Shown here: positions 2,822 to 34,244 of the stretch, in pieces | Layout: each line of letters opens with the position of its first letter | Position numbering within the stretch: position 1 is the stretch's first letter | Origin: Alphaproteobacteria bacterium | Lineage (GTDB): Bacteria; Pseudomonadota; Alphaproteobacteria; Reyranellales; Reyranellaceae | Direction of reading: 5' to 3' | Assembly: GCA_016870115.1 (NCBI GenBank) | Contig: VGCH01000016.1 | Location: 1 to 61,244 of the forward strand | Length of the DNA stretch: 61,244 nucleotides | Notes under the pieces: model-generated | Told to the model about the DNA's origin: nothing | Database searches by the model: none | What the model saw: only the letters and a program-made list of their open reading frames with translations | Program-made: the position numbers and the translations under genes

Positions 2822-3532
2822 ATGAACCGTCTCTTTCCGGCCGCGATCGCGGCCCTGCTGGCCTGCGCCCTTCCCGGCCCGGCCGCCGCCGATCTGTTCG
2901 TTTCTCCGGTGATCGTTGAGATGGTGGGCCGGCCCACCGTCACCGTCCGCATCGGCAATCAGGGGCAGCAACCGACGCAAGCGCAGGTTCGGGTGTTCGG
3001 ATGGACCCACGGCAAGGGCGGCGACGAGTACCCGCCTACCGAGGAAGTCGTCGCAAGCCCGCCGATCTTCGACCTCGGCCCCGGCGAGACCCAAACCATC
3101 CGTCTCCTCGCACGCAAGATGCCGACCGAGCGAGAGGCCGCCTATCGCGTCTTCGTCGACCAGATACCCGGCGAGACGGAACGGCGGGGACGCGGGCAAA
3201 TCTCCTTCCCCATCCGGTTCGTGCTGCCGCTGTTCGTGGCCGCGGGCAGTGAGGGAGAGGCGCGGCTGGCCAGCCAGTTCCAGCGCACGTCGGTCAACGC
3301 CGCGACGCTCGCGATCTCGAACACGGGCACCAAACGCGCGCGATTCGACGATCTGTGGTTGGTCGCCGGTGGCCAGAAAATCAAAGCACCCGGCGACTTC
3401 CCGACCTATGTGCTGGCTGGCTCGGCGCGGGAATGGACGTTCACCGGCCGCGACGCCAATGCGGCCGCCCAAGCGACCAAGCTGATGGTCATGATCGACG
3501 ACAAGGAAGTCGAGATCCCGCTCGGCCGCTAG
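2822..3532 (+). CDS. PapD-like periplasmic pilus chaperone
   Basis: 236 residues with a signal peptide (MNRLFPAAIAALLACALPGPAAA) followed by two Ig-like domains. Domain 1 has DLFVSPVIVEM, the surface Arg/Lys positions, and FDLGPGETQTIRLLARK, the G1-strand region that donates residues to subunits. Domain 2 begins near residue 125 with FPIRFVLPLFV. It belongs to the archaic (Csu) chaperone group by context. It keeps pilus subunits folded and delivers them to the usher. 46 bases separate it from the preceding subunit gene. It appears intact, unlike the usher next to it. Confidence 0.85.
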   Translation: MNRLFPAAIAALLACALPGPAAADLFVSPVIVEMVGRPTVTVRIGNQGQQPTQAQVRVFGWTHGKGGDEYPPTEEVVASPPIFDLGPGETQTIRLLARKMPTEREAAYRVFVDQIPGETERRGRGQISFPIRFVLPLFVAAGSEGEARLASQFQRTSVNAATLAISNTGTKRARFDDLWLVAGGQKIKAPGDFPTYVLAGSAREWTFTGRDANAAAQATKLMVMIDDKEVEIPLGR

Positions 3533-3643
3533 GATCGGCCCGACCAACCCCCCGCCATAGACCCGCGACCGCCCCCCTGGGCGCGCGGACGGATTTCGCG
3601 CGCCCGAAAGCCACGATCACACTGTGAATATGTCCATTTTCTC

Positions 3644-3673
3644 TTTAAAATACAACATATATGCACGTATTCT
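3644..3673 (+). promoter_or_regulatory. Candidate promoter before the reduced usher gene
   Basis: TTTAAA (3644-3649), 18 bases, TATTCT (3668-3673) within a sharply AT-rich island (about 3620-3695) in a 173-base gap. The same -10 hexamer occurs in the candidate promoter before the pilin. By eye only. Confidence 0.35.
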
Positions 3674-3705
3674 TGAATTTACACCGAAGCTAGATAAGGA
3701 GCGCC

Positions 3706-4317
3706 TTGGGAACGCTGGCCAGATGGGGACCGGCCATGGCCGGGGCGCTGGCGCTTGTCGCGGCGGCGGCGATCGCGCACGCCACCCCCTTGGTGCTCGA
3801 TGTGCTGGTGAACGGTGTCCGCACCGGGATCGTCCAGGAGTTCAGGCTGGACGGCGCCAACCTTCTGGTGCCGCGGGACGACCTTGAGAAGATCGGCACA
3901 ACCGACAGCGATGGAAAGCTCTTCATTCCGCGCCTGCGCTCGCTGTCCTCCAACAAGATCTCGGTCGATCCGGCGAGTGTGCCCATCACCGCCGATCTCG
4001 ATCGTACCGAAGTCGATATCGCGCCTGACGAGCGGGTGGGTGTGCGCATCGACTTCCCCGTGCGCCGCAACGAGTCGATGCGGCTCGTCCTGGTCACCGC
4101 CGACGGCAAGCCAGTGCCGGCGGGCTCGCGCATCCGCGTCCTGCCGCAGGGCCGGCCGACAGCCGTCGGCTTCGATGGCCAGGCGTTCCTGCAGGGTGTC
4201 GGTGCAGCGACGCTGATCGAAGTTTCGGGTACAAAGGGCACATGCCGGATCGAACTCCCCAAGAACGGCAGCGCCCCCGACCCGCTCGCGTCCCACAAGC
4301 TCGTCTGCAAGCCGTGA
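3706..4317 (+). CDS. Usher-like protein lacking the beta-barrel
   Basis: 203 residues from a TTG start at 3706, chosen because AAGGAG (3696-3701) sits four bases ahead; ATG at 3736 is the alternative. A signal peptide (cut near AHA) is followed by the start of an archaic usher, PLVLDVLVNGVRTG and LLVPRDDLEKIG. At about residue 67 it jumps straight to the end of the barrel and the C-terminal domain: FIPRLRSLSSNKISVDP, GVRIDFPVRR, VPAGSRIRVLPQG and VGFDGQAFLQG. Known ushers are near 800 residues, so about 600 forming the pore and plug are absent without breaking the frame. It could be an internal in-frame deletion or a streamlined periplasmic form. It overlaps the next start as GTGA. Confidence 0.75.
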   Translation: MGTLARWGPAMAGALALVAAAAIAHATPLVLDVLVNGVRTGIVQEFRLDGANLLVPRDDLEKIGTTDSDGKLFIPRLRSLSSNKISVDPASVPITADLDRTEVDIAPDERVGVRIDFPVRRNESMRLVLVTADGKPVPAGSRIRVLPQGRPTAVGFDGQAFLQGVGAATLIEVSGTKGTCRIELPKNGSAPDPLASHKLVCKP

Positions 4318-4780
4318 CGCTCGCGGTGGCGCTCTCGGTACTGGGCGCCTCGCCGGCGGTGGCTCAATCGGTGTGCGGACTTACCGCGACGGCCATGGCG
4401 TTCGGCAACTACTCGGCCGTGCTGGGTACAGCGGGGAACACGACCGCCACGCTCACCATGACCTGCACCAACAACACAAATGCTGCCGACACGGTAAACT
4501 ACTCGATCAGTCTCGCGACGGGCGTGGGCGGCGGCTACAATCCGCGCGCATGGCGGCCGGCGCCGAGCGCCTCAACTACAACATCTTTCGCAACAACGCG
4601 CGGACCCAAATCTGGGGCAACGGCACTGGCGGCACCCAGGTCGTGACTGGCAGCTTCAACGTGCCCCGCAACCAGACCCGCACGCGCAACGTGACCGCCT
4701 ACGGCCAGATTATCTCCAACCAGGACGCGTCCCAGGGGGATTACGTCGATACCGTCACCGCGACCGCCACCTTCAACTGA
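4314..4780 (+). pseudogene. Frameshifted SCPU-domain pilus subunit
   Basis: A GTG at 4314 overlaps the usher stop and opens a signal peptide (TLAVALSVLGASPAVA) and the front half of an SCPU domain (SVCGLTATAMAFGNYS to GGGYNPRA, about residue 80). The rest of the domain continues in the frame two bases on: MAAGAERLNYNIFRNN, WGNGTGGTQ and DYVDTVTATATFN to the TGA at 4780. The break falls in the GCGCGC run near 4546-4552; one extra or two fewer bases restore the frame. It could be a disabling mutation, slippage-mediated switching or a sequencing error. By position it would be the tip/last subunit, but it has only one domain. Confidence 0.75.
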
Positions 4781-5534: not shown

Positions 5535-5608
5535 GGTTTCCTCCCTTGGGTCCGGTGACGAGCCATAGCACAGGGGCCGGGCATCTGGTGAAGCCCGGTC
5601 GGGCTCCG

Positions 5609-5614
5609 TAAGAT
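5609..5614 (+). promoter_or_regulatory. Candidate -10 element of a leaderless P1 peptidase mRNA
   Basis: TAAGAT ends six bases before the ATG at 5621 and no Shine-Dalgarno sequence is present, the geometry expected if transcription starts at the start codon. The same 6-base spacing recurs at three other genes here. A -35 element is not obvious. Confidence 0.35.
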
Positions 5615-5620
5615 CGGGCG

Positions 5621-6613
5621 ATGCTCAATCTCCTGACCGATGTGGCCGGCATCACCGTGGGCCACGCCACCGATCTCACGCTCGGCACGGGCGCGACGGC
5701 GATCCTGTTCGACGCGCCGGCGACGGTCGCCGTCGCGACACTGGGCGGCGCGCCCGGCAGTCGCGACACCGCCATGCTGGAACCCGAGATGACCCGCCAG
5801 CAGATCGATGGCGTGATGCTGAGCGGCGGCTCGGTCTACGGACTCGATGCACCCGGCGGCGCGCAGGCCGCGTTGCGCGAGGCCGGGCGCGGCTTTCGCC
5901 TGCGCGGCGCGCTGGTGCCGCTGATCTCCGGAGCGATCGTGTTCGACCTGCTGAACGGCGCGCCCAAGGACTGGGGCACCTTCTCGCCGTATCGCGATCT
6001 CGGCTACACAGCGACCAAGGCGGCGCGACCCGGCGCCTTCGCGTTGGGCACCGTCGGCGCCGGCACCGGCGCCACGACCGCGACGGTCAAAGGCGGAGTG
6101 GGTTCGGCCAGCGCCCGTACCTCCACCGGGCATGTCGTGGCGGCGCTCGCGGTGGTGAACGCCGTCGGTGCGCCGACCATTGGCGATGGCCCGCATTTCT
6201 GGGCGGCGCCGTACGAGGTGGGCGACGAGTATGGCGCGCGCGGTTGGCCCGCTCGCATCGCCCCCGCGGACGTGGCGCCCCGCATGAAAGGCCTGCCCCC
6301 GCCCGCGACCGCCACGACCATCGGTATCGTGGCCACCGACGCCGTCCTGACGAAGGGTCAGTGCAAGCGGCTCGCCATCATGGCCAATGACGGTCTCGCG
6401 CGGGCTATCCTGCCCGCCCATGCGCCGGGCGATGGCGACACGGTCTTCGCGGCTGCCACCGGCGCGCGACCGCTGGCCCAGGAAGAGGATCTGGCGCTGC
6501 TGGGACATGCCGCGACGTTGGTGTTCGCCCGCGCCTGCGCGCGCGGCTGCTACGCGGCAACGACCCCACCCTGGAGCGGCGGGCAGAGAAGCTGGCGGGA
6601 TCGGTTCGCCTGA
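5621..6613 (+). CDS. P1 family (DmpA/BapA-like) peptidase
   Basis: 330 residues, typical for the S58/P1 self-processing aminopeptidases that release N-terminal D-, L- or beta-amino acids. Diagnostic stretches are the N-terminal LLTDVAGITVGHATD, GGAPGSRDTAMLEP, QIDGVMLSGGSVYGLDA, and the processing/nucleophile segment ATTIGIVATDA (Thr232/Thr233), followed by KRLAIMANDGLARAI and DGDTVFAAATG. Probably cytosolic, as no signal peptide is seen. It is divergent from the RraA-like gene and appears leaderless. The usual Asn before the nucleophile Thr is replaced here by the A-T-A-T-T series, so self-cleavage should not be assumed. Confidence 0.85.
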   Translation: MLNLLTDVAGITVGHATDLTLGTGATAILFDAPATVAVATLGGAPGSRDTAMLEPEMTRQQIDGVMLSGGSVYGLDAPGGAQAALREAGRGFRLRGALVPLISGAIVFDLLNGAPKDWGTFSPYRDLGYTATKAARPGAFALGTVGAGTGATTATVKGGVGSASARTSTGHVVAALAVVNAVGAPTIGDGPHFWAAPYEVGDEYGARGWPARIAPADVAPRMKGLPPPATATTIGIVATDAVLTKGQCKRLAIMANDGLARAILPAHAPGDGDTVFAAATGARPLAQEEDLALLGHAATLVFARACARGCYAATTPPWSGGQRSWRDRFA

Positions 6614-6620
6614 TCGCCCG

Positions 6621-7121
6621 TCAGTTGAGGCGCCAGAGCTGACCGTTCAGCAGCGTCGCAAACATCACCCAGGTGAGGTAGGGCAGCAGCAGGAATGCGG
6701 CCCAGGCGTCGTGGCGGCGAAACAGGTGAATGTTGACGGCGATGGCGGCGGCGAGGAACACGATCTCGACCAGCGCCCAGCCAACTTCCCGCAAGCCGAA
6801 GAAGAGCACCGACCACAGAAGGTTGAGCGCGAGTTGCAAGCCATAGACGGCGAAGGCCGCGCGCGTCTGCTCGCCGAAGCCCGCGCGCCACCAGACGCGA
6901 AACCCGGCGAGCGCGATCATGAGGTAGAGCGCGCTCCAGACCGGCGCGAAGACCCAGTCGGGAGGGTTGAAGCCGGGCTTGGCGAGCGTCGGATACCAGC
7001 TCTTGACGCTCGACTGGGTCGCCAAGCCGCCCAGCGCCGAGACAACCACGCAGAGCGCCACGAACCCGGCGAGAACCAGCCAGGCGCGTCCGTCGAAGCG
7101 GCGCCGCTCAGCTTGCGGCAC
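6621..7121 (-). CDS. tspO: TspO/MBR family membrane protein
   Basis: 166 residues with five predicted membrane helices. The family signature is present: SWYPTLAKPGFNPPDWVFAPVW near residues 41-62, then LYLMIALAGFRVWW, and NLLWSVLFFGLREVGWAL in helix 4. TspO proteins bind tetrapyrroles and sterol-like ligands in the envelope and modulate porphyrin export or oxidative signalling in alphaproteobacteria. Its start overlaps the end of the upstream DUF3833 gene by 14 bases, so the two are co-transcribed. Its stop is 7 bases from the convergent P1 peptidase stop. Confidence 0.92.
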   Translation of the reverse strand: MPQAERRRFDGRAWLVLAGFVALCVVVSALGGLATQSSVKSWYPTLAKPGFNPPDWVFAPVWSALYLMIALAGFRVWWRAGFGEQTRAAFAVYGLQLALNLLWSVLFFGLREVGWALVEIVFLAAAIAVNIHLFRRHDAWAAFLLLPYLTWVMFATLLNGQLWRLN

Positions 7122-10071: not shown

Positions 10072-11475
10072 ATGACCGACACGACCTGGATGAGCGCCGC
10101 CGACCTCGCGCGCGACTACAGGCGCGGCACGCTCTCGCCAGTTGAGGTGGTCGAGGCGTCACTGCGCCGGGCCGAGCGACTTCAGGGACCGCTCAATGCG
10201 TTCGTGCTGATCGACCGGCCGGGCGCGCTGGCGGCGGCCCGCGCGTCCGAGGCGCGCTGGCGGGCAGGTGCGCCCCTGTCGCCGCTCGATGGCGTGCCGA
10301 CCTCGATCAAGGACACGACGGCGGTCGCGGGATGGGCGACGCGCTACGGCTCGCTCGCCACCGACGATGCGCCGGCCTCCGAGGACGCACCGGTCAGCGG
10401 CCGGTTCCGCGCCGCCGGCATGGTGCTGCTGGGCAAGACCACCACGCCCGAATTCGGTTGGAAGGCGCTGACGGACTCGCCGATCTCCGGCACGACGCGC
10501 AATCCCTGGAACACGGCGCGCTCGCCGGGCGGGTCCTCCGGCGGCGCGGCGGCGGCGACGGCGGCCGGCATTTCGCCGATCGCTCACGGCAACGATGGCG
10601 GCGGCTCGATCCGCATCCCCGCCGCGCAGTGCGGGCTGGTCGGGCTGAAACCAAGCTTCGGTCGCATCCCACAACACCCGGCCGATAGCCCCTTCGCCGA
10701 CGCCATCAGCCAGGGAGTGCTGACCCGGACCGTGCCGGACACGGCATTGGCCCTGAGCCTCACGGCCGGCGCCGACGCGCGCGACTTCCGATCGCTACCC
10801 ACGACTGGTCGCGACTGGACGGTTGGAATCGATGGCGGCGTGCGCGGGTGGCGGATCGGGCTCAGCCTCGATTTCGGCCATGTCACCGCGGACCCGGAAG
10901 TGCGCGAGCTGGTTGCCGGCGCGGCGCGACGCTTCGAGGCGCTGGGCGCCCATGTCGAGGACGTGGGTCCCTTGATCGCGCCGTTGAAGGAGTCCTTCGA
11001 GGCGCTTTGGCTGGGCGGCTTCGCCGCGCGCTTGCGAACGATCCCCACGCAAATGCACAGCCGGCTCGATCCGGGCTACCTCGCGGCCGCGCAGAAGGGT
11101 CTCGCGGTCACGCTTGCCGACTATATCCGGGCCTACGAGGCCAAGGCGAAGCTGGCGCGCGATCTCGCGCAATTCCTGGAGCGCTACGATCTGCTGCTGG
11201 CGCCGGTGACCCCCACGCCGCCACCACCCGTGGAGACGCTCTACAATTCCGAGGCCTTTCCGCGCTGGACCAAGGGTGCCCCCTTCACCTTGCCCTGCAA
11301 TCTCACGGGCCAGCCGGCCGCCTCCATGCCGGCCGGACTGACCCGCGATGGTCTGCCTGTCGGGCTTCAGATGATCGGGCCGCCGCACGGCGACGCGCAT
11401 GTGCTGCGCGCGATGCGCGCCTACGAAGGCACGCTCGACTGGCGCTGGCCCCAGGCGGCGCTCACCAACCTCTAG
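10072..11475 (+). CDS. Amidase-signature family amidase
   Basis: 467 residues of the amidase-signature (AS) family, Ser-cisSer-Lys hydrolases of aliphatic or aryl amides. The catalytic Lys is K80 in PTSIKDTT, the cis-Ser lies in SPGGSSGG (S155), and the nucleophile is S179 in DGGGSIRIPAA. The spacing of 24 residues between the two serines is normal. Downstream are GLVGLKPSFGRIP and a C-terminal PVGLQMIGPP. It is cytosolic and stands alone on the plus strand, divergent from the metallo-hydrolase operon. It could be mistaken for GatA, but no gatC or gatB adjoins it. Confidence 0.9.
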   Translation: MTDTTWMSAADLARDYRRGTLSPVEVVEASLRRAERLQGPLNAFVLIDRPGALAAARASEARWRAGAPLSPLDGVPTSIKDTTAVAGWATRYGSLATDDAPASEDAPVSGRFRAAGMVLLGKTTTPEFGWKALTDSPISGTTRNPWNTARSPGGSSGGAAAATAAGISPIAHGNDGGGSIRIPAAQCGLVGLKPSFGRIPQHPADSPFADAISQGVLTRTVPDTALALSLTAGADARDFRSLPTTGRDWTVGIDGGVRGWRIGLSLDFGHVTADPEVRELVAGAARRFEALGAHVEDVGPLIAPLKESFEALWLGGFAARLRTIPTQMHSRLDPGYLAAAQKGLAVTLADYIRAYEAKAKLARDLAQFLERYDLLLAPVTPTPPPPVETLYNSEAFPRWTKGAPFTLPCNLTGQPAASMPAGLTRDGLPVGLQMIGPPHGDAHVLRAMRAYEGTLDWRWPQAALTNL

Positions 11476-11489
11476 GGGTCTCCCTCAAC

Positions 11490-11565
11490 GCGGAGCTCAT
11501 CCTGAGGCGCGGCCGAAGGATCTTTCGGGTTCAGGAAAGACTCTTCGGCTCGCGCGGAACAACAG
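11490..11565. repeat. Possible degenerate intergenic repeat
   Basis: The 103-base gap between convergent genes contains CTCATCCTGAGG, then GGCCGAAGGATC and CTCTTCGGC. This resembles, from memory, the CATCCTGAGG...CGAAGGATG family of intergenic palindromes seen in many alphaproteobacteria. No second copy is seen in this window. Confidence 0.25.
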
Positions 11566-11578
11566 CCTTGCCGAAGTC

Positions 11579-12478
11579 TCAGTCCAGGTCCATGCCGTCC
11601 ATGCCGGCGTTCTTGCGTGCCTTGCGGGCGAGTTCGGTCAGCACCTTGCCGGCCTGGTAGGGATCTAGGATCTGGTCGGCCATCGGGCCCTTGTGCCAGC
11701 CCTCGGCGACGGCGAACTGGCCATTGCCAGCCTGGAAGACACGACCCGTGACATCGCGGCTCGCCTCGCTCACCAGCCACGTGGCGACCGGCGCGATCCA
11801 CTTCGGATCGCGGCGCTTCTTGTCCTCTTCCGAGTACTCGCGCAGGTCTTCGGTCATGCGGGTGAAGGCGGACGGCGAGATCGAGTTCACGGTGATGCCA
11901 TAGCGACCAAGCTCGCGCGCGGCGATCACTGTGAAGGACGCAATGCCAGCCTTGGCCGCGCCGTAGTTGGTCTGGCCGATATTGCCGTAGATGCCGGAGA
12001 CAGACGTGGTCGTGACGATGCGCGCGTCGACCGGTCCCCCCTTCAGCTTGGCCTGGTCGCGCCAGTAGGCGGCGGCATGCCGCGCCGGCGCGAACGTGCC
12101 CTTGAGGTGGACCTTGATGACGGCGTCCCACTCCTCCTCGCTCATGTTCACCAGCATGCGATCGCGCAGGATGCCGGCGTTGAGGACTACGGCGTCGAGC
12201 TTGCCGAACACGGAGACTGCCTGGTCGATCATGCGCTTGGCGCCGTTCCAATCCGAGACGTCGTCGCCATTGGCGACTGCTTCGCCGCCCATGGCCTTGA
12301 TCTCGTTCACAACCTGCTGGGCCGGGCCGACATCGTTGCCCTTGCCGGCGCGATCGCCGCCGAGGTCGTTCACGACGACCTTGGCGCCGTGCTCGGCCAG
12401 CATCAGGCAATGCTCGCGGCCCACGCCGCGCGCCCCCCCGGTCACGATCGCTACCCGTCCCTCGCACAGTCTCGCCAT
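11579..12478 (-). CDS. SDR oxidoreductase, 3-hydroxyacyl-CoA dehydrogenase-like
   Basis: 299 residues of the short-chain dehydrogenase family. It has the NAD(P) motif VTGGARGVGREH at residues 12-23, VVVNDLGGD after beta-2, the N-A-G motif (LNAGILRDRML), and the catalytic Ser-Tyr-Lys (TSVSGIYG and NYGAAKAG). The long loop with GGDRAGKGNDVGPAQQVV and the strand NGDDVSDW match the dehydrogenase half of MFE-2-type multifunctional enzymes, which oxidise (3R)-hydroxyacyl-CoA in beta-oxidation. Cytosolic. It is divergent from a serine hydrolase gene across a 74-base gap with an imperfect palindrome. Confidence 0.87.
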   Translation of the reverse strand: MARLCEGRVAIVTGGARGVGREHCLMLAEHGAKVVVNDLGGDRAGKGNDVGPAQQVVNEIKAMGGEAVANGDDVSDWNGAKRMIDQAVSVFGKLDAVVLNAGILRDRMLVNMSEEEWDAVIKVHLKGTFAPARHAAAYWRDQAKLKGGPVDARIVTTTSVSGIYGNIGQTNYGAAKAGIASFTVIAARELGRYGITVNSISPSAFTRMTEDLREYSEEDKKRRDPKWIAPVATWLVSEASRDVTGRVFQAGNGQFAVAEGWHKGPMADQILDPYQAGKVLTELARKARKNAGMDGMDLD

Positions 12479-12486
12479 GGCTGCCT

Positions 12487-12521
12487 CCCGAATGCGCCGT
12501 GCCCTTCCGGCACCGTTCGGG
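12487..12521. repeat. Imperfect palindrome between divergent genes
   Basis: CCCGAA (12487-12492) and TTCGGG (12516-12521) flank a shorter inner arm GTGCC/GGCAC. It lies between the start of the minus-strand SDR gene and the plus-strand serine hydrolase operon, where an operator shared by both promoters would be expected. Evidence is structural only. Confidence 0.35.
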
Positions 12522-12552
12522 CTAGTCTAGCGGACCCGCACGGAGGATCGCC

Positions 12553-13779
12553 ATGGACACGCTGCCCGTCGTTTCGCCCGAAGAGGTTGGGCTTTCCGCA
12601 AAGCGGTTGGACCGCATCCGCGCCTGGATGGAGCGCCAGGTTTCGTCCGGACGGGTCGCGGGGCTCGATGTCGCCGTGATGCGGCGGGGCCAACTGGCCT
12701 TCGCCGCCTGCACCGGTCTCGCCGACCTTGAGCGCAAGAAGCCGGCGCGCCCCGACACGATCTGGCGCATCTATTCGATGACCAAGCCGCTCACCAGCGT
12801 CGCCATCATGATGCTGTACGAAGAAGGACGCTTCCAGCTCGACGATCCGATCTCGCGCTTCATCCCGGGCTTCGCCAATCCACGCGTCTGGACGGGCGGC
12901 AGCCGCGGCAAGATCGAGACCGTGCCGGCGGAGCGCGAGATCACGTTCCGCGATCTGCTCACCCACACCTCCGGCCTGACCTACGACTTCATGGAGAGCA
13001 ATCCGGTCGACGCGCTCTATCGCGAGAAAGGCGGCGTCGATTTCCGCACCGGCGATCGCACGCTGGAAGACGTCGTGGGCAAGCTCGCGACGATGCCGCT
13101 GATCGACCATCCCGGCCGCGCCTGGAACTACTCCGTCGCCACCGATGTGCTCGGCTACCTCGTGCAAGTGATTTCGGGGCAGGCCTTCGATGCCTACCTG
13201 CGCGAGCGTGTGCTCGGTCCGCTGGGGATGATCGATACGGATTTCCACGTGCCGGCCGACAAGCACGCCCGCTTTGCCGCCTGCTACATGCCCGGCAAGA
13301 CCGGTGGGCTCGCGCTGATGGACGATCCCGCGACCAGCCGCTACCTCGCGCCGCGCAAGCTCGCCTCGGGCGGCGGCGGACTGGTTTCGACGGTCGCCGA
13401 CTACCTCCGCTTCTGCCGCTTCATGCTGGCCAAGGGAGAGCTCGACGGGGTGCGCCTGCTGTCGCGCAAGACGGTCGAGCTGATGACCGCCAACCATCTC
13501 AACGGCGACATGGCGGCGATGGGAATGCCGCGCTTCAGCGAGTCGACCTACGCCGGCATCGGCTTCGGTCTCGGCTTCTCCGTGATGCTCGATCCGGCGA
13601 AGGCGCACATCCTCGGCACGCCCGGCGAGTACGCCTGGGGCGGTGCGGCCTCGACCGCCTTCTGGATCGATCCGGTGGAGGAGATGGCGGTGGTGCTGAT
13701 GACCCAGCTCTTCCCCTCGTCCACCTGGCCGATCCGCCGCGAGCTGCGGGTGCTGGCCTACCAGTCGATCGTGGATTGA
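12553..13779 (+). CDS. Serine hydrolase, class C beta-lactamase/esterase fold
   Basis: 408 residues of the beta-lactamase-related (Pfam Beta-lactamase) family, which includes esterases, amidases and D-aminopeptidases. The nucleophile motif is S75-M-T-K78, the second motif Y193-S-V (WNYSVATDVLGYL), and the third is likely in the C-terminal YAWGGAAST. There is no signal peptide, so a cytosolic esterase or amidase is more likely than an antibiotic-resistance enzyme. It is the first gene of a plus-strand operon with a TauD-type dioxygenase (8-base gap), an MFS transporter and an isonitrile-hydratase-like gene. GGAGG precedes the ATG. Confidence 0.87.
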   Translation: MDTLPVVSPEEVGLSAKRLDRIRAWMERQVSSGRVAGLDVAVMRRGQLAFAACTGLADLERKKPARPDTIWRIYSMTKPLTSVAIMMLYEEGRFQLDDPISRFIPGFANPRVWTGGSRGKIETVPAEREITFRDLLTHTSGLTYDFMESNPVDALYREKGGVDFRTGDRTLEDVVGKLATMPLIDHPGRAWNYSVATDVLGYLVQVISGQAFDAYLRERVLGPLGMIDTDFHVPADKHARFAACYMPGKTGGLALMDDPATSRYLAPRKLASGGGGLVSTVADYLRFCRFMLAKGELDGVRLLSRKTVELMTANHLNGDMAAMGMPRFSESTYAGIGFGLGFSVMLDPAKAHILGTPGEYAWGGAASTAFWIDPVEEMAVVLMTQLFPSSTWPIRRELRVLAYQSIVD

Positions 13780-31138: not shown

Positions 31139-32344
31139 ATGTCCTCCGCCGGCGCGCCGCCGCTCGCCATCGTCCTGCTTGCCTTCGCGGCCTTCGCCGC
31201 TGCGGCCAACATGCGCGCCGTGGATCCGCTGCTGATTGCCATCGCGGCGGAGTACGGCACCAGCGTGGGCGAGGCCTCGATCGCGGCGACGACATTTCTC
31301 CTGGCGAATGGACTCTTTGTCTTGGTCCACGGCCCGTTGGGCGATCGGTTCGGCAAGGTGCCGGTCGTCACGGCGGGGGCAATCGGCGCCGCGCTGTTTT
31401 CGGGCCTGAGCGCGCTTGCCGGCTCACTGGAGACGCTCGCGGTCGCGCGGTTCCTGACCGGCGTCACCAGCTCGGCGATCATCCCGCTTGCCATCGCCTG
31501 GGTGGGCGACCGCGTGAGCTACGACCGGCGGCAAGCAACGCTGGCGCGCTTCCTCACGGGCCAGACGCTGGGGCTGATGGCTGGCGCGGCGCTGGGCGGT
31601 GCGATCGGCGACTGGCTGGGCTGGCGGGCGGCGTTCTGGTTGCTGGCCGTCGTCTACGTCGCGTCCGCTCTGGCGCTTCTGTTGGTCGCGCGCGCACAGC
31701 CCGCGCTCTTGGCCACGGGCGCACGGAGCGAAGGCTCGATGCTGGCGCAGATGCGCCGCGTGCTGGCGCGGCCCTGGGCGCGGTTCGTGATCGTGACGGT
31801 GGCGATCGAGGGTGGGCTGTTCTGGGGCGCCTTTACCTTTGTCGGCGCCGACCTGCATCGCCGCTTCGAACTCGACCGCGCAGCGGTCGGTCTGGCGGTC
31901 GCGGCCTTCGCAGCCGGCGGCTTCCTCTATGTCAGTGCCGCGCCGCGGCTGCTCGCATGGCTCGGCGAGCGCGGCCTTTGTCTGGGGGGCGGCGTGCTGC
32001 TCGGCGTCGCCTTCGCCGCCCTCGCCATCGCGCCGGGCCTAGCCGTGGCCTTCGCCGCCATCGTGGCCTCGGGGGTCGGCTTCTATATGTTCCACAACAC
32101 GCTTCAGACGCATGGCACGCAGATGGCCCCCGAAGCACGGGGCGCCGCTATGGCGCTTTTCGCGCTTTGCCTCTTCATCGGTCAGGCGATCGGAGTGCCC
32201 CTCGCAGCGCCCGTGGTCGATCGCTGGGGTGCGGTGCCTCTCTTCGCCGGCATCGCGATCGCGCTGCCCGTGCTTGCCTGGACCTTCGCGCGCGGTCTCG
32301 CCCGACGAACCGCGGATCAGGCGTCGGGCGCGCGCCAGACGTAG
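31139..32344 (+). CDS. MFS transporter, DHA1-like
   Basis: 401 residues, 12 predicted helices. The loop 2-3 motif is [13 protein letters not shown], the start [22 protein letters not shown], helix 5 [22 protein letters not shown] (antiporter-type motif C). A drug or metabolite efflux carrier of the inner membrane; substrate unknown. It is divergent from the TerC operon and its last 28 bases overlap the convergent aldo/keto reductase gene. Confidence 0.88.
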
Positions 32345-33294
32345 GGTTTCTCCAGTTCGGCGATCTCCGCGGGCTCAAGGACGAGTGCCGTCGCCGCTGC
32401 CGCATCGTCGAGTTGATCGGGTCGGGTCGCGCCGATGATGGGCGAGGCCATGCCGGGCTTGGCCAACAGCCAGGCCAGTGCCACCTGGGTCGGCTTCACG
32501 CCGCGCCGCGACGCGATGCGCGCGACCGTATCGGCCACCTGCCAATCGCAATCGCGGTAGGTCCCGGCCTTCACGACCACGTCGTTGCGCGAGCGCTCGG
32601 TCTCGCCGCCGCCCTCGCGCGTCCGATTGCCGGCGAGGAAGCCGCGGGCGAGCGGACTGTAGGGGATCAGGCCCACGCCCTCCTCGGCGCAGAGCCGGTT
32701 CATCTCCCGCTCCTCCTCGCGCTGGATCAGATTGTAGAGGTTCTGCATCGCCACAGGCCGGGCCCAACCACGATGCCGCGCGACCTCGATCATCTGAGCG
32801 AACTTGTAGGCCGGCATGGTCGAACCGCCGATGTAGCGAACCTTGCCGGATCGCACGAGCGTGTCGAGCGAGTACATCGTCTCCTCGATCGGCGTATGCG
32901 GATCGAGTCGGTGGACCTGGTAGAGATCGATATGGTCCGTGCCGAGACGTTTCAGCTGGGCATCGACCGAGGCCATCAGATGCTTGCGGCCCGTGCCCTG
33001 GTCGTTCTGGCCCTCGCTCATGCGAATCCCGACCTTCGTCGAGATCACGATCTCGTCGCGCCGCGCCATCTTGAGCAGCGTGGCGCCCACGATCTCCTCG
33101 GAGCGGCCGAAATTGTAGGTGTCGGCGGTGTCGAAGAAGGTGAAGCCCGCGTCGAGCGCCCGGCGGAAATAGAGCCGCGCCTCGTCCTCGTCGAACTTGC
33201 CCCAGCCGCGTCGCCCCTTTGCGCCCCACGAATTGCCGCCGAGACAGACGCGGCTCACAATCAGGCCGGAACGGCCGAGAGGCCCAAACTTCAT
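32317..33294 (-). CDS. Aldo/keto reductase
   Basis: 325 residues, TIM-barrel NADPH oxidoreductase. Catalytic tetrad: D55 and Y60 in FFDTADTYNFGRSEE, K87 in VISTKVGI, H128 in LYQVHRLDPHTP. GLIPYSPLARGFLAGN is the usual cofactor loop. Reduces aldehydes or ketones in the cytosol. It follows a secreted orphan gene by four bases on the same strand, and overlaps the convergent MFS gene at its 3' end. Confidence 0.92.
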   Translation of the reverse strand: MKFGPLGRSGLIVSRVCLGGNSWGAKGRRGWGKFDEDEARLYFRRALDAGFTFFDTADTYNFGRSEEIVGATLLKMARRDEIVISTKVGIRMSEGQNDQGTGRKHLMASVDAQLKRLGTDHIDLYQVHRLDPHTPIEETMYSLDTLVRSGKVRYIGGSTMPAYKFAQMIEVARHRGWARPVAMQNLYNLIQREEEREMNRLCAEEGVGLIPYSPLARGFLAGNRTREGGGETERSRNDVVVKAGTYRDCDWQVADTVARIASRRGVKPTQVALAWLLAKPGMASPIIGATRPDQLDDAAAATALVLEPAEIAELEKPYVWRAPDA

Positions 33295-33298
33295 TGAA

Positions 33299-33940
33299 TC
33301 ATCCTTGTAGGCGATCCGCGGCGCGAATCCGCTCGGGGATCGGTTTGTCGACCCCCTTTAGCACGCGCTCGATGCGCCCGTCGCGCCGCACGAAGATGCC
33401 CTCCAGAACACGCTGGATCAGCGCATCGTCGAGGACAACACCCGTGGGTGGGCAGAAGATTCCGGTCACGGACTGCCGTTCGACATCGTTCGTCGACCCA
33501 ACATCGTTCGTCAGGTGACGCAACTCGAAGATCGCGCAGGACGCGCCGTCCGTCTCGAACCGGCCAACCCGCTGATACGGACCCGGGGCAGGCGCTGGCG
33601 CCACCACTCGAACCTCGCGGTCCTTGAACCAGGACAACGACTGTCGCACCCAGGTGCCGTCAAGATCTGTCGCCCGACTCCAATACGTGATCGGCGCCAA
33701 CTGATGGAAGAAGGCCTGCAGTCGGCCGGGCGTGGCGTTTGCCCGTGCCACTCCCCCGTACGAAACCTCGGTGAGCGCATTGGCGGTCCACCCGAAGTTT
33801 TGATAGACGGGCTGCAGATCCTCAAGGTGGGGGGCGAGCAACAGGAGCTTGGACTGCTGCGGGCTGACCCGCTTGTCCTGTGCGTACGCCGAACCGACCA
33901 GGCTCGCCGCCATCGCCAACGCCACAAGGAATGCGCGCAT
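33299..33940 (-). CDS. Secreted protein of unknown function
   Basis: 213 residues. A clear signal peptide (MRAFLVALAMAASLVGSAYA) then a mature periplasmic protein. I do not recognise the family. Two Cys (GASCAIFELR and GIFCPPTG) could form one disulphide. The latter half reads like a small receptor-like domain (VVLDDALIQRVLEGIFVRRDGRIERV). It ends four bases before the aldo/keto reductase start, so they are probably co-transcribed. The start is divergent from the SelW-like gene. Confidence 0.75.
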   Translation of the reverse strand: MRAFLVALAMAASLVGSAYAQDKRVSPQQSKLLLLAPHLEDLQPVYQNFGWTANALTEVSYGGVARANATPGRLQAFFHQLAPITYWSRATDLDGTWVRQSLSWFKDREVRVVAPAPAPGPYQRVGRFETDGASCAIFELRHLTNDVGSTNDVERQSVTGIFCPPTGVVLDDALIQRVLEGIFVRRDGRIERVLKGVDKPIPERIRAADRLQG

Positions 33941-34004: not shown

Positions 34005-34028
34005 GGCGATGGGCAAGGGAGGCTGATT

Positions 34029-34244
34029 GTGAAGGTCCTGATCGAGTATTGCGGCGCTTGAGGCTACAAGCCGCAGGCCCTCCGGGTGAGGGATAGCCTC
34101 CTGAAGCAAGGATCGCACGAGATCGAACTCAAGCCGGGGCGCAGCGGGCAGTTCGACGTCAGCGTCGACGGAACCCTGCGCTACACGCGAGCCCGCACCG
34201 GCCGGTTCCCGACCGATGCGGAGATCGAGGATCTGCTGGACTGA
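34029..34244 (+). CDS. SelW-like (Rdx family) selenoprotein with in-frame TGA
   Basis: 71 residues if TGA at 34059-34061 is read as selenocysteine. The frame opens with GTG at 34029, preceded by AAGGGAGG (34015-34022) six bases away, and gives VKVLIEYCGAU-GYKPQAL, the CxxU redox motif of the SelW/SelT/SelH (Rdx) family. After the TGA the frame stays open to 34244 and keeps the family's C-terminal block (GQFDVSVDGTLRYTRART and GRFPTDAEIEDLLD). A frameshift or stop would not leave this block conserved in the same frame. A SECIS-like hairpin follows. Rdx proteins are thioredoxin-fold, cytosolic and likely glutathione-linked. It requires selA, selB, selC and selD elsewhere. Confidence 0.85.
34075..34099 (+). 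promoter_or_regulatory. Candidate bacterial SECIS element
   Basis: AGGC-CCTC (34075-34082), a loop CGGGT (34083-34087) and GAGG-GATA-GCCT (34088-34099) fold into a short hairpin with a GATA bulge. AGGCTA at 34061-34066 and TAGCCT at 34094-34099 offer an alternative outer stem. The apical loop starts about 21 nt after the TGA and contains G, within the range reported for bacterial SECIS elements that bind SelB. Confidence 0.6.

Follow-up and report, generated by a model that had tools for sequence, protein, structure and literature searches.

We find that positions 34029 to 34244 on the forward strand of the window (the whole stretch of 61,244 nucleotides analysed here, which is contig 16 of the host assembly) very probably form a genuine selenoprotein gene of the SelW/Rdx type, with selenocysteine (Sec) inserted at UGA 34059 and translation continuing to UGA 34242. 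We put the probability of this reading at about 0.96. A real SelW gene with an in-frame UGA is almost certain; the gene and its frame, the decoding machinery, a conserved and covarying hairpin and the predicted fold all emerge from the sequence data. The insertion of Sec at codon 11 is what we infer from these data together with the established biology of bacterial Sec. Ribosomes would start at GTG 34029, the hairpin downstream of UGA 34059 would be bound by SelB with Sec-tRNA-Sec and GTP, SelB would deliver Sec at this codon, and translation would proceed to UGA 34242, where it would terminate.

The coding part (34029-34241) specifies 71 residues including Sec and is followed by a TGA terminator at 34242-34244. 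A Shine-Dalgarno-like sequence (AAGGGAGG, 34015-34022, forward strand) lies six bases upstream of the GTG. With TGA read as Sec, the product is VKVLIEYCGAUGYKPQALRVRDSLLKQGSHEIELKPGRSGQFDVSVDGTLRYTRARTGRFPTDAEIEDLLD. The frame, start, ribosome site, length, C-terminus and stop described in the first-pass annotation are all present in the sequence, and so is the CGAU Rdx motif that it placed at the in-frame TGA (codons 8-11; TGA at 34059-34061). Under the standard code, the list of open reading frames contains none of 60 amino acids or more in this frame. The read-through product nevertheless matches Pfam Rdx (PF10262) over residues 2-70 (E=7.6e-17; 61.7 bits against a cut-off of 22.6) as well as TIGR02174 (46.7 bits against a cut-off of 34.2). 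As the profile match spans both sides of the TGA, the continuation of the frame past it is not a chance occurrence. In a profile search of the host genome, selW was the only Rdx gene found.

The predicted structure agrees with this assignment. An AlphaFold model built with an 18-sequence input reached a pLDDT of 94.8 and has the thioredoxin-like fold of SelW, with the CxxU motif (C8-G-A-U11) following a strand at residues 2-8. The top Foldseek matches in the PDB are SelW-family structures (from Agrobacterium, Streptomyces, Vibrio, Bordetella and Pseudomonas, with mouse SelW further down the list), consistent with the sequence profile matches. Judging from the family and the motif, the Cys8-Sec11 pair most likely serves as the thiol/selenol redox centre of a small protein with a thioredoxin-like fold.

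The in-frame TGA is conserved to the exact codon. Among 36 genomes of the same family, 25 contain selW, always with exactly one internal TGA. All 52 GTDB loci have the TGA at one and the same codon, and in 51 of them the frame runs to full length with a conserved C-terminus. The first-pass annotation had named relatives with the frame broken further downstream as evidence that would speak against it; the sole such case is a truncated copy in one MAG (L104, 1284-1400), whose frame diverges from the family about 24 codons in and ends shortly thereafter. This copy is the one observation that favours a pseudogene, a once Cys-type SelW gene in which the TGA arose by nonsense mutation or is a sequencing error. 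Against this, the protein is strongly conserved past a TGA that never shifts its codon, and no Cys form was found among the close relatives. We rejected the pseudogene, which we consider so improbable as to be negligible, because the codon-exact TGA is conserved across many genera.

The selenoprotein reading also holds outside the family. Among 385 alphaproteobacterial genomes sampled evenly, homologues fall into two clear groups: the 28 best (E of 1e-14 or less) each contain exactly one TGA, at the same codon as in the window, while the 15 weaker ones contain none. One homologue has a TAA (in genome G372), but this copy is of the Cys type and its stop lies at a different codon. An alignment with CxxC homologues, proposed in the first-pass annotation, places the UGA at the second Cys. 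Outside the family, selA scores over the cut-off in 24 of the 25 genomes with Sec-SelW but in 0 of the 14 with Cys-SelW (Fisher p about 1e-9, a value that overstates the significance since relatives are not independent). One genome (G048; loci L035/L125), a MAG that is 77% complete, has a Sec-type SelW but no selA, selB or selC of convincing score. This is probably a result of the incompleteness of the MAG, although an orphan selW without machinery is possible.

The host assembly (3.56 Mb, rated 100% complete; its nearest relatives' records include Reyranella, Enhydrobacter aerosaccus and Vineibacter, which places it in the Reyranellaceae group of Alphaproteobacteria) encodes the complete Sec machinery. 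An absence of selB or selC would have counted against Sec decoding, but all four genes sought were found. Contig 19 carries tRNA-Sec (selC, 1476-1567; 72.3 bits, called tRNA-SeC (tca) by ARAGORN), selB (2903-4750) and selA (5546-6856) together, while selD (3705-4631) lies separately on contig 34; the three protein genes were located by a profile search of the contigs. On contig 34, selD falls within an open frame of 792 amino acids (L110, 2113-4491, minus strand), consistent with an Ndh-SelD fusion, whereas the selD frame is of stand-alone size in several Reyranella. Near selABC on contig 19 is also a gene for the alpha subunit of a Sec formate dehydrogenase (L109, about 10300-13600, minus strand). 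It has one internal TGA, at which standard callers would split the gene, in a motif of the textbook type (ARIUHGPTVASLAPSFGRGAMTN). After this UGA comes GGCC-AGUCU-GGCC, a potential hairpin with a five-base loop. With both the machinery and a Sec formate dehydrogenase in the genome, decoding of UGA as Sec is expected in this host independently of SelW. The earlier suggestion that the organism probably decodes UGA in this way is well supported by the machinery, the conserved TGA and the covarying hairpin described below.

Within the family, the machinery and selW are not always found together. Of the 11 genomes without SelW, 10 have kept selA, indicating that SelW is dispensable and that the machinery serves another client, presumably the Sec formate dehydrogenase. 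In several Reyranellaceae (G005, G008, G011, G014-G016, G027, G030 and G036), selA, selB and selC are all kept and there is no SelW match; here, SelW has been lost and Sec decoding retained.

A UGA read by a near-cognate tRNA (such as that for Trp), or reassigned altogether, would yield the same protein with a different residue at position 11, and it is true that this residue is predicted from sequence. However, selW itself ends in TGA, the full Sec machinery is present and selA tracks the Sec form; in addition, CxxC homologues have their second Cys where the UGA stands, and a covarying hairpin lies 3' of it. We rejected this reading and consider either version highly improbable; Sec at codon 11 remains the preferred reading.

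A small hairpin with a G-bearing loop just 3' of the UGA is the form expected of a bacterial SECIS, and such a hairpin is found at 34078-34092 on the forward strand (stem CCCUC/GAGGG, loop CGGGU at 34083-34087). Its stem begins 16 nt past the UGA and its five-base loop 21 nt past, in line with the first-pass annotation, which had put a hairpin with a G-containing loop about 21 nt after the TGA. The loop is usually CGUGY; in the window, and in a few relatives whose codon 19 is CGG, it is CGGGU instead. Within the family, synonymous sites in the hairpin hardly vary: codons 17-21 show 6 minor codons out of 235, compared with 249 out of 1377 at the other degenerate codons, and Arg21 is AGG in 43 of 43 sequences, a codon that makes up 1.6% of Arg codons in eight genes of the window.

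Since the stem pairs hardly vary within the family, counting pairs there is uninformative and a class-wide set is needed. Across the class, 98.8% of stem cells are paired despite several variants of the stem (CGCUC/GAGCG, CUCUC/GAGAG, CCCGC/GCGGG and CUCGC/GCGAG, with loop CGUGU or CGUGC), including compensatory changes from CG to GC, CG to UA and UA to GC. The two sides of the stem change together in 8 cells, against 0.9 in shuffles. The covariation score is 0.186 compared with 0.046 in shuffled alignments (reached in 0 of 500 shuffles, although kinship among relatives means that shuffle counts overstate the significance), while controls with the stem slid along the alignment scored 0.039 or less. 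No such hairpin is present in the three Cys-type homologues examined, and a search of Rfam gave no relevant match.

Could the gene be real and the hairpin incidental, imposed by codon or amino-acid constraints, with the true SECIS elsewhere or of a different kind? The near-invariance of the stem within the family would fit, as would unguided RNAalifold on the family alignment, whose weak consensus has only three pairs, in a shifted register. However, synonymous sites are frozen in the hairpin though variable elsewhere in selW, the two sides of the stem change together across the class, and the Cys homologues examined do not have the stem. We therefore find an incidental hairpin very unlikely and retain it as the candidate SECIS of selW. 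In the window, a competing GCCC/GGGU hairpin is favoured by about 2 kcal/mol in the unconstrained minimum-energy fold of a 48-nt context. Given this more stable competing fold and the CGGGU loop, recoding could be less efficient in the window than with the usual loop.

We also looked at the surroundings of selW. In 41 of the 52 loci (those listed are L053-L094 and L104), selW and an aldo/keto reductase gene are transcribed divergently from starts only about 47-52 nt apart, and most loci also keep the downstream order of a 2-hydroxyacid dehydrogenase and an Lrp-type regulator. The two divergent genes likely share a regulatory region. In the window, the aldo/keto reductase gene (32317-33294, minus strand) is likewise divergent from selW, but a gene without any Pfam match (33299-33940, minus strand) lies between them, as in L076 and L084. 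A Shine-Dalgarno-like site precedes selW in these same three loci, whereas most directly divergent loci have none, suggesting from sequence that the selW mRNA is leaderless there. A more far-reaching reading is that alphaproteobacterial Sec-SelW forms a branch of its own, marked by a near-invariant SECIS loop (CGUGY), which in Reyranellaceae would work with the divergently transcribed aldo/keto reductase under a shared 47-52 nt regulatory region, its mRNA leaderless in most species. This fuller picture is speculative, and we think it rather unlikely to hold in every part.

Bacterial SelW-like selenoproteins are long established, as surveys of the Sargasso Sea (PMC1088965) and GOS (PMC2398784) data show. 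For Alphaproteobacteria, a 2006 survey gave FdhA as the sole selenoprotein family (PMC1794560), and FDH-O/selABC clusters with a Sec formate dehydrogenase are known in the class (PMC1794560, PMC8124441). Thus, although Sec decoding in this host is supported, the novelty that the first-pass annotation attached to it is modest. A 2016 survey of 5200 organisms gives its per-organism details in supplements, where an alphaproteobacterial SelW may already be listed (PMC5029168). Our search for literature on Reyranella and selenoproteins or selenocysteine found nothing relevant, with many subscription papers and all supplements lying outside it. The gene is thus of a known kind, and what it adds is a conserved alphaproteobacterial branch. 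It gives the Alphaproteobacteria a widely conserved and easily missed selenoprotein, shows that their Sec machinery serves more than formate dehydrogenase, and provides a compact natural SECIS backed by covariation. It also illustrates how standard gene calling loses short selenoprotein genes; in Epsilonproteobacteria, SelW genes are often missed entirely by annotation (PMC4607533).

Compared with known systems, the window's gene shares with the bacterial SelW-like selenoproteins (PF10262, TIGR02174) its family, CxxU motif, small size, in-frame UGA and a downstream hairpin of the bacterial SECIS type. What sets it apart from those of the Sargasso Sea and GOS surveys is its lineage, Reyranellaceae and other Alphaproteobacteria, in which the apical loop is almost invariably CGUGY and, within Reyranellaceae, the order of genes next to the aldo/keto reductase is kept. 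The SelW of Campylobacter jejuni (CJnc60/selW) is translated past its UGA, as demonstrated by Ribo-seq and mass spectrometry (PMC11955535), and the Campylobacter profile NF041051 (SelTWH_Campy) is the best NCBIfam match to the window's product; at 73.6 bits, this is below the equivalog cut-off of 88 bits, so the protein is not assigned to that equivalog. The FDH-O/selABC cluster, present in the host with its Sec formate dehydrogenase alpha gene, uses the same decoding machinery, but formate dehydrogenase is a large molybdoenzyme. As FdhA was the sole family on the 2006 list, SelW is an addition to it. Finally, the Cys-type (CxxC) Rdx protein Atu0228 of Agrobacterium (2fa8) has the same fold (TM 0.87) and the same active-site position, but such Cys-type proteins of Alphaproteobacteria carry Cys in place of Sec, in class-sample genomes without selA and, in the homologues examined, without the hairpin.
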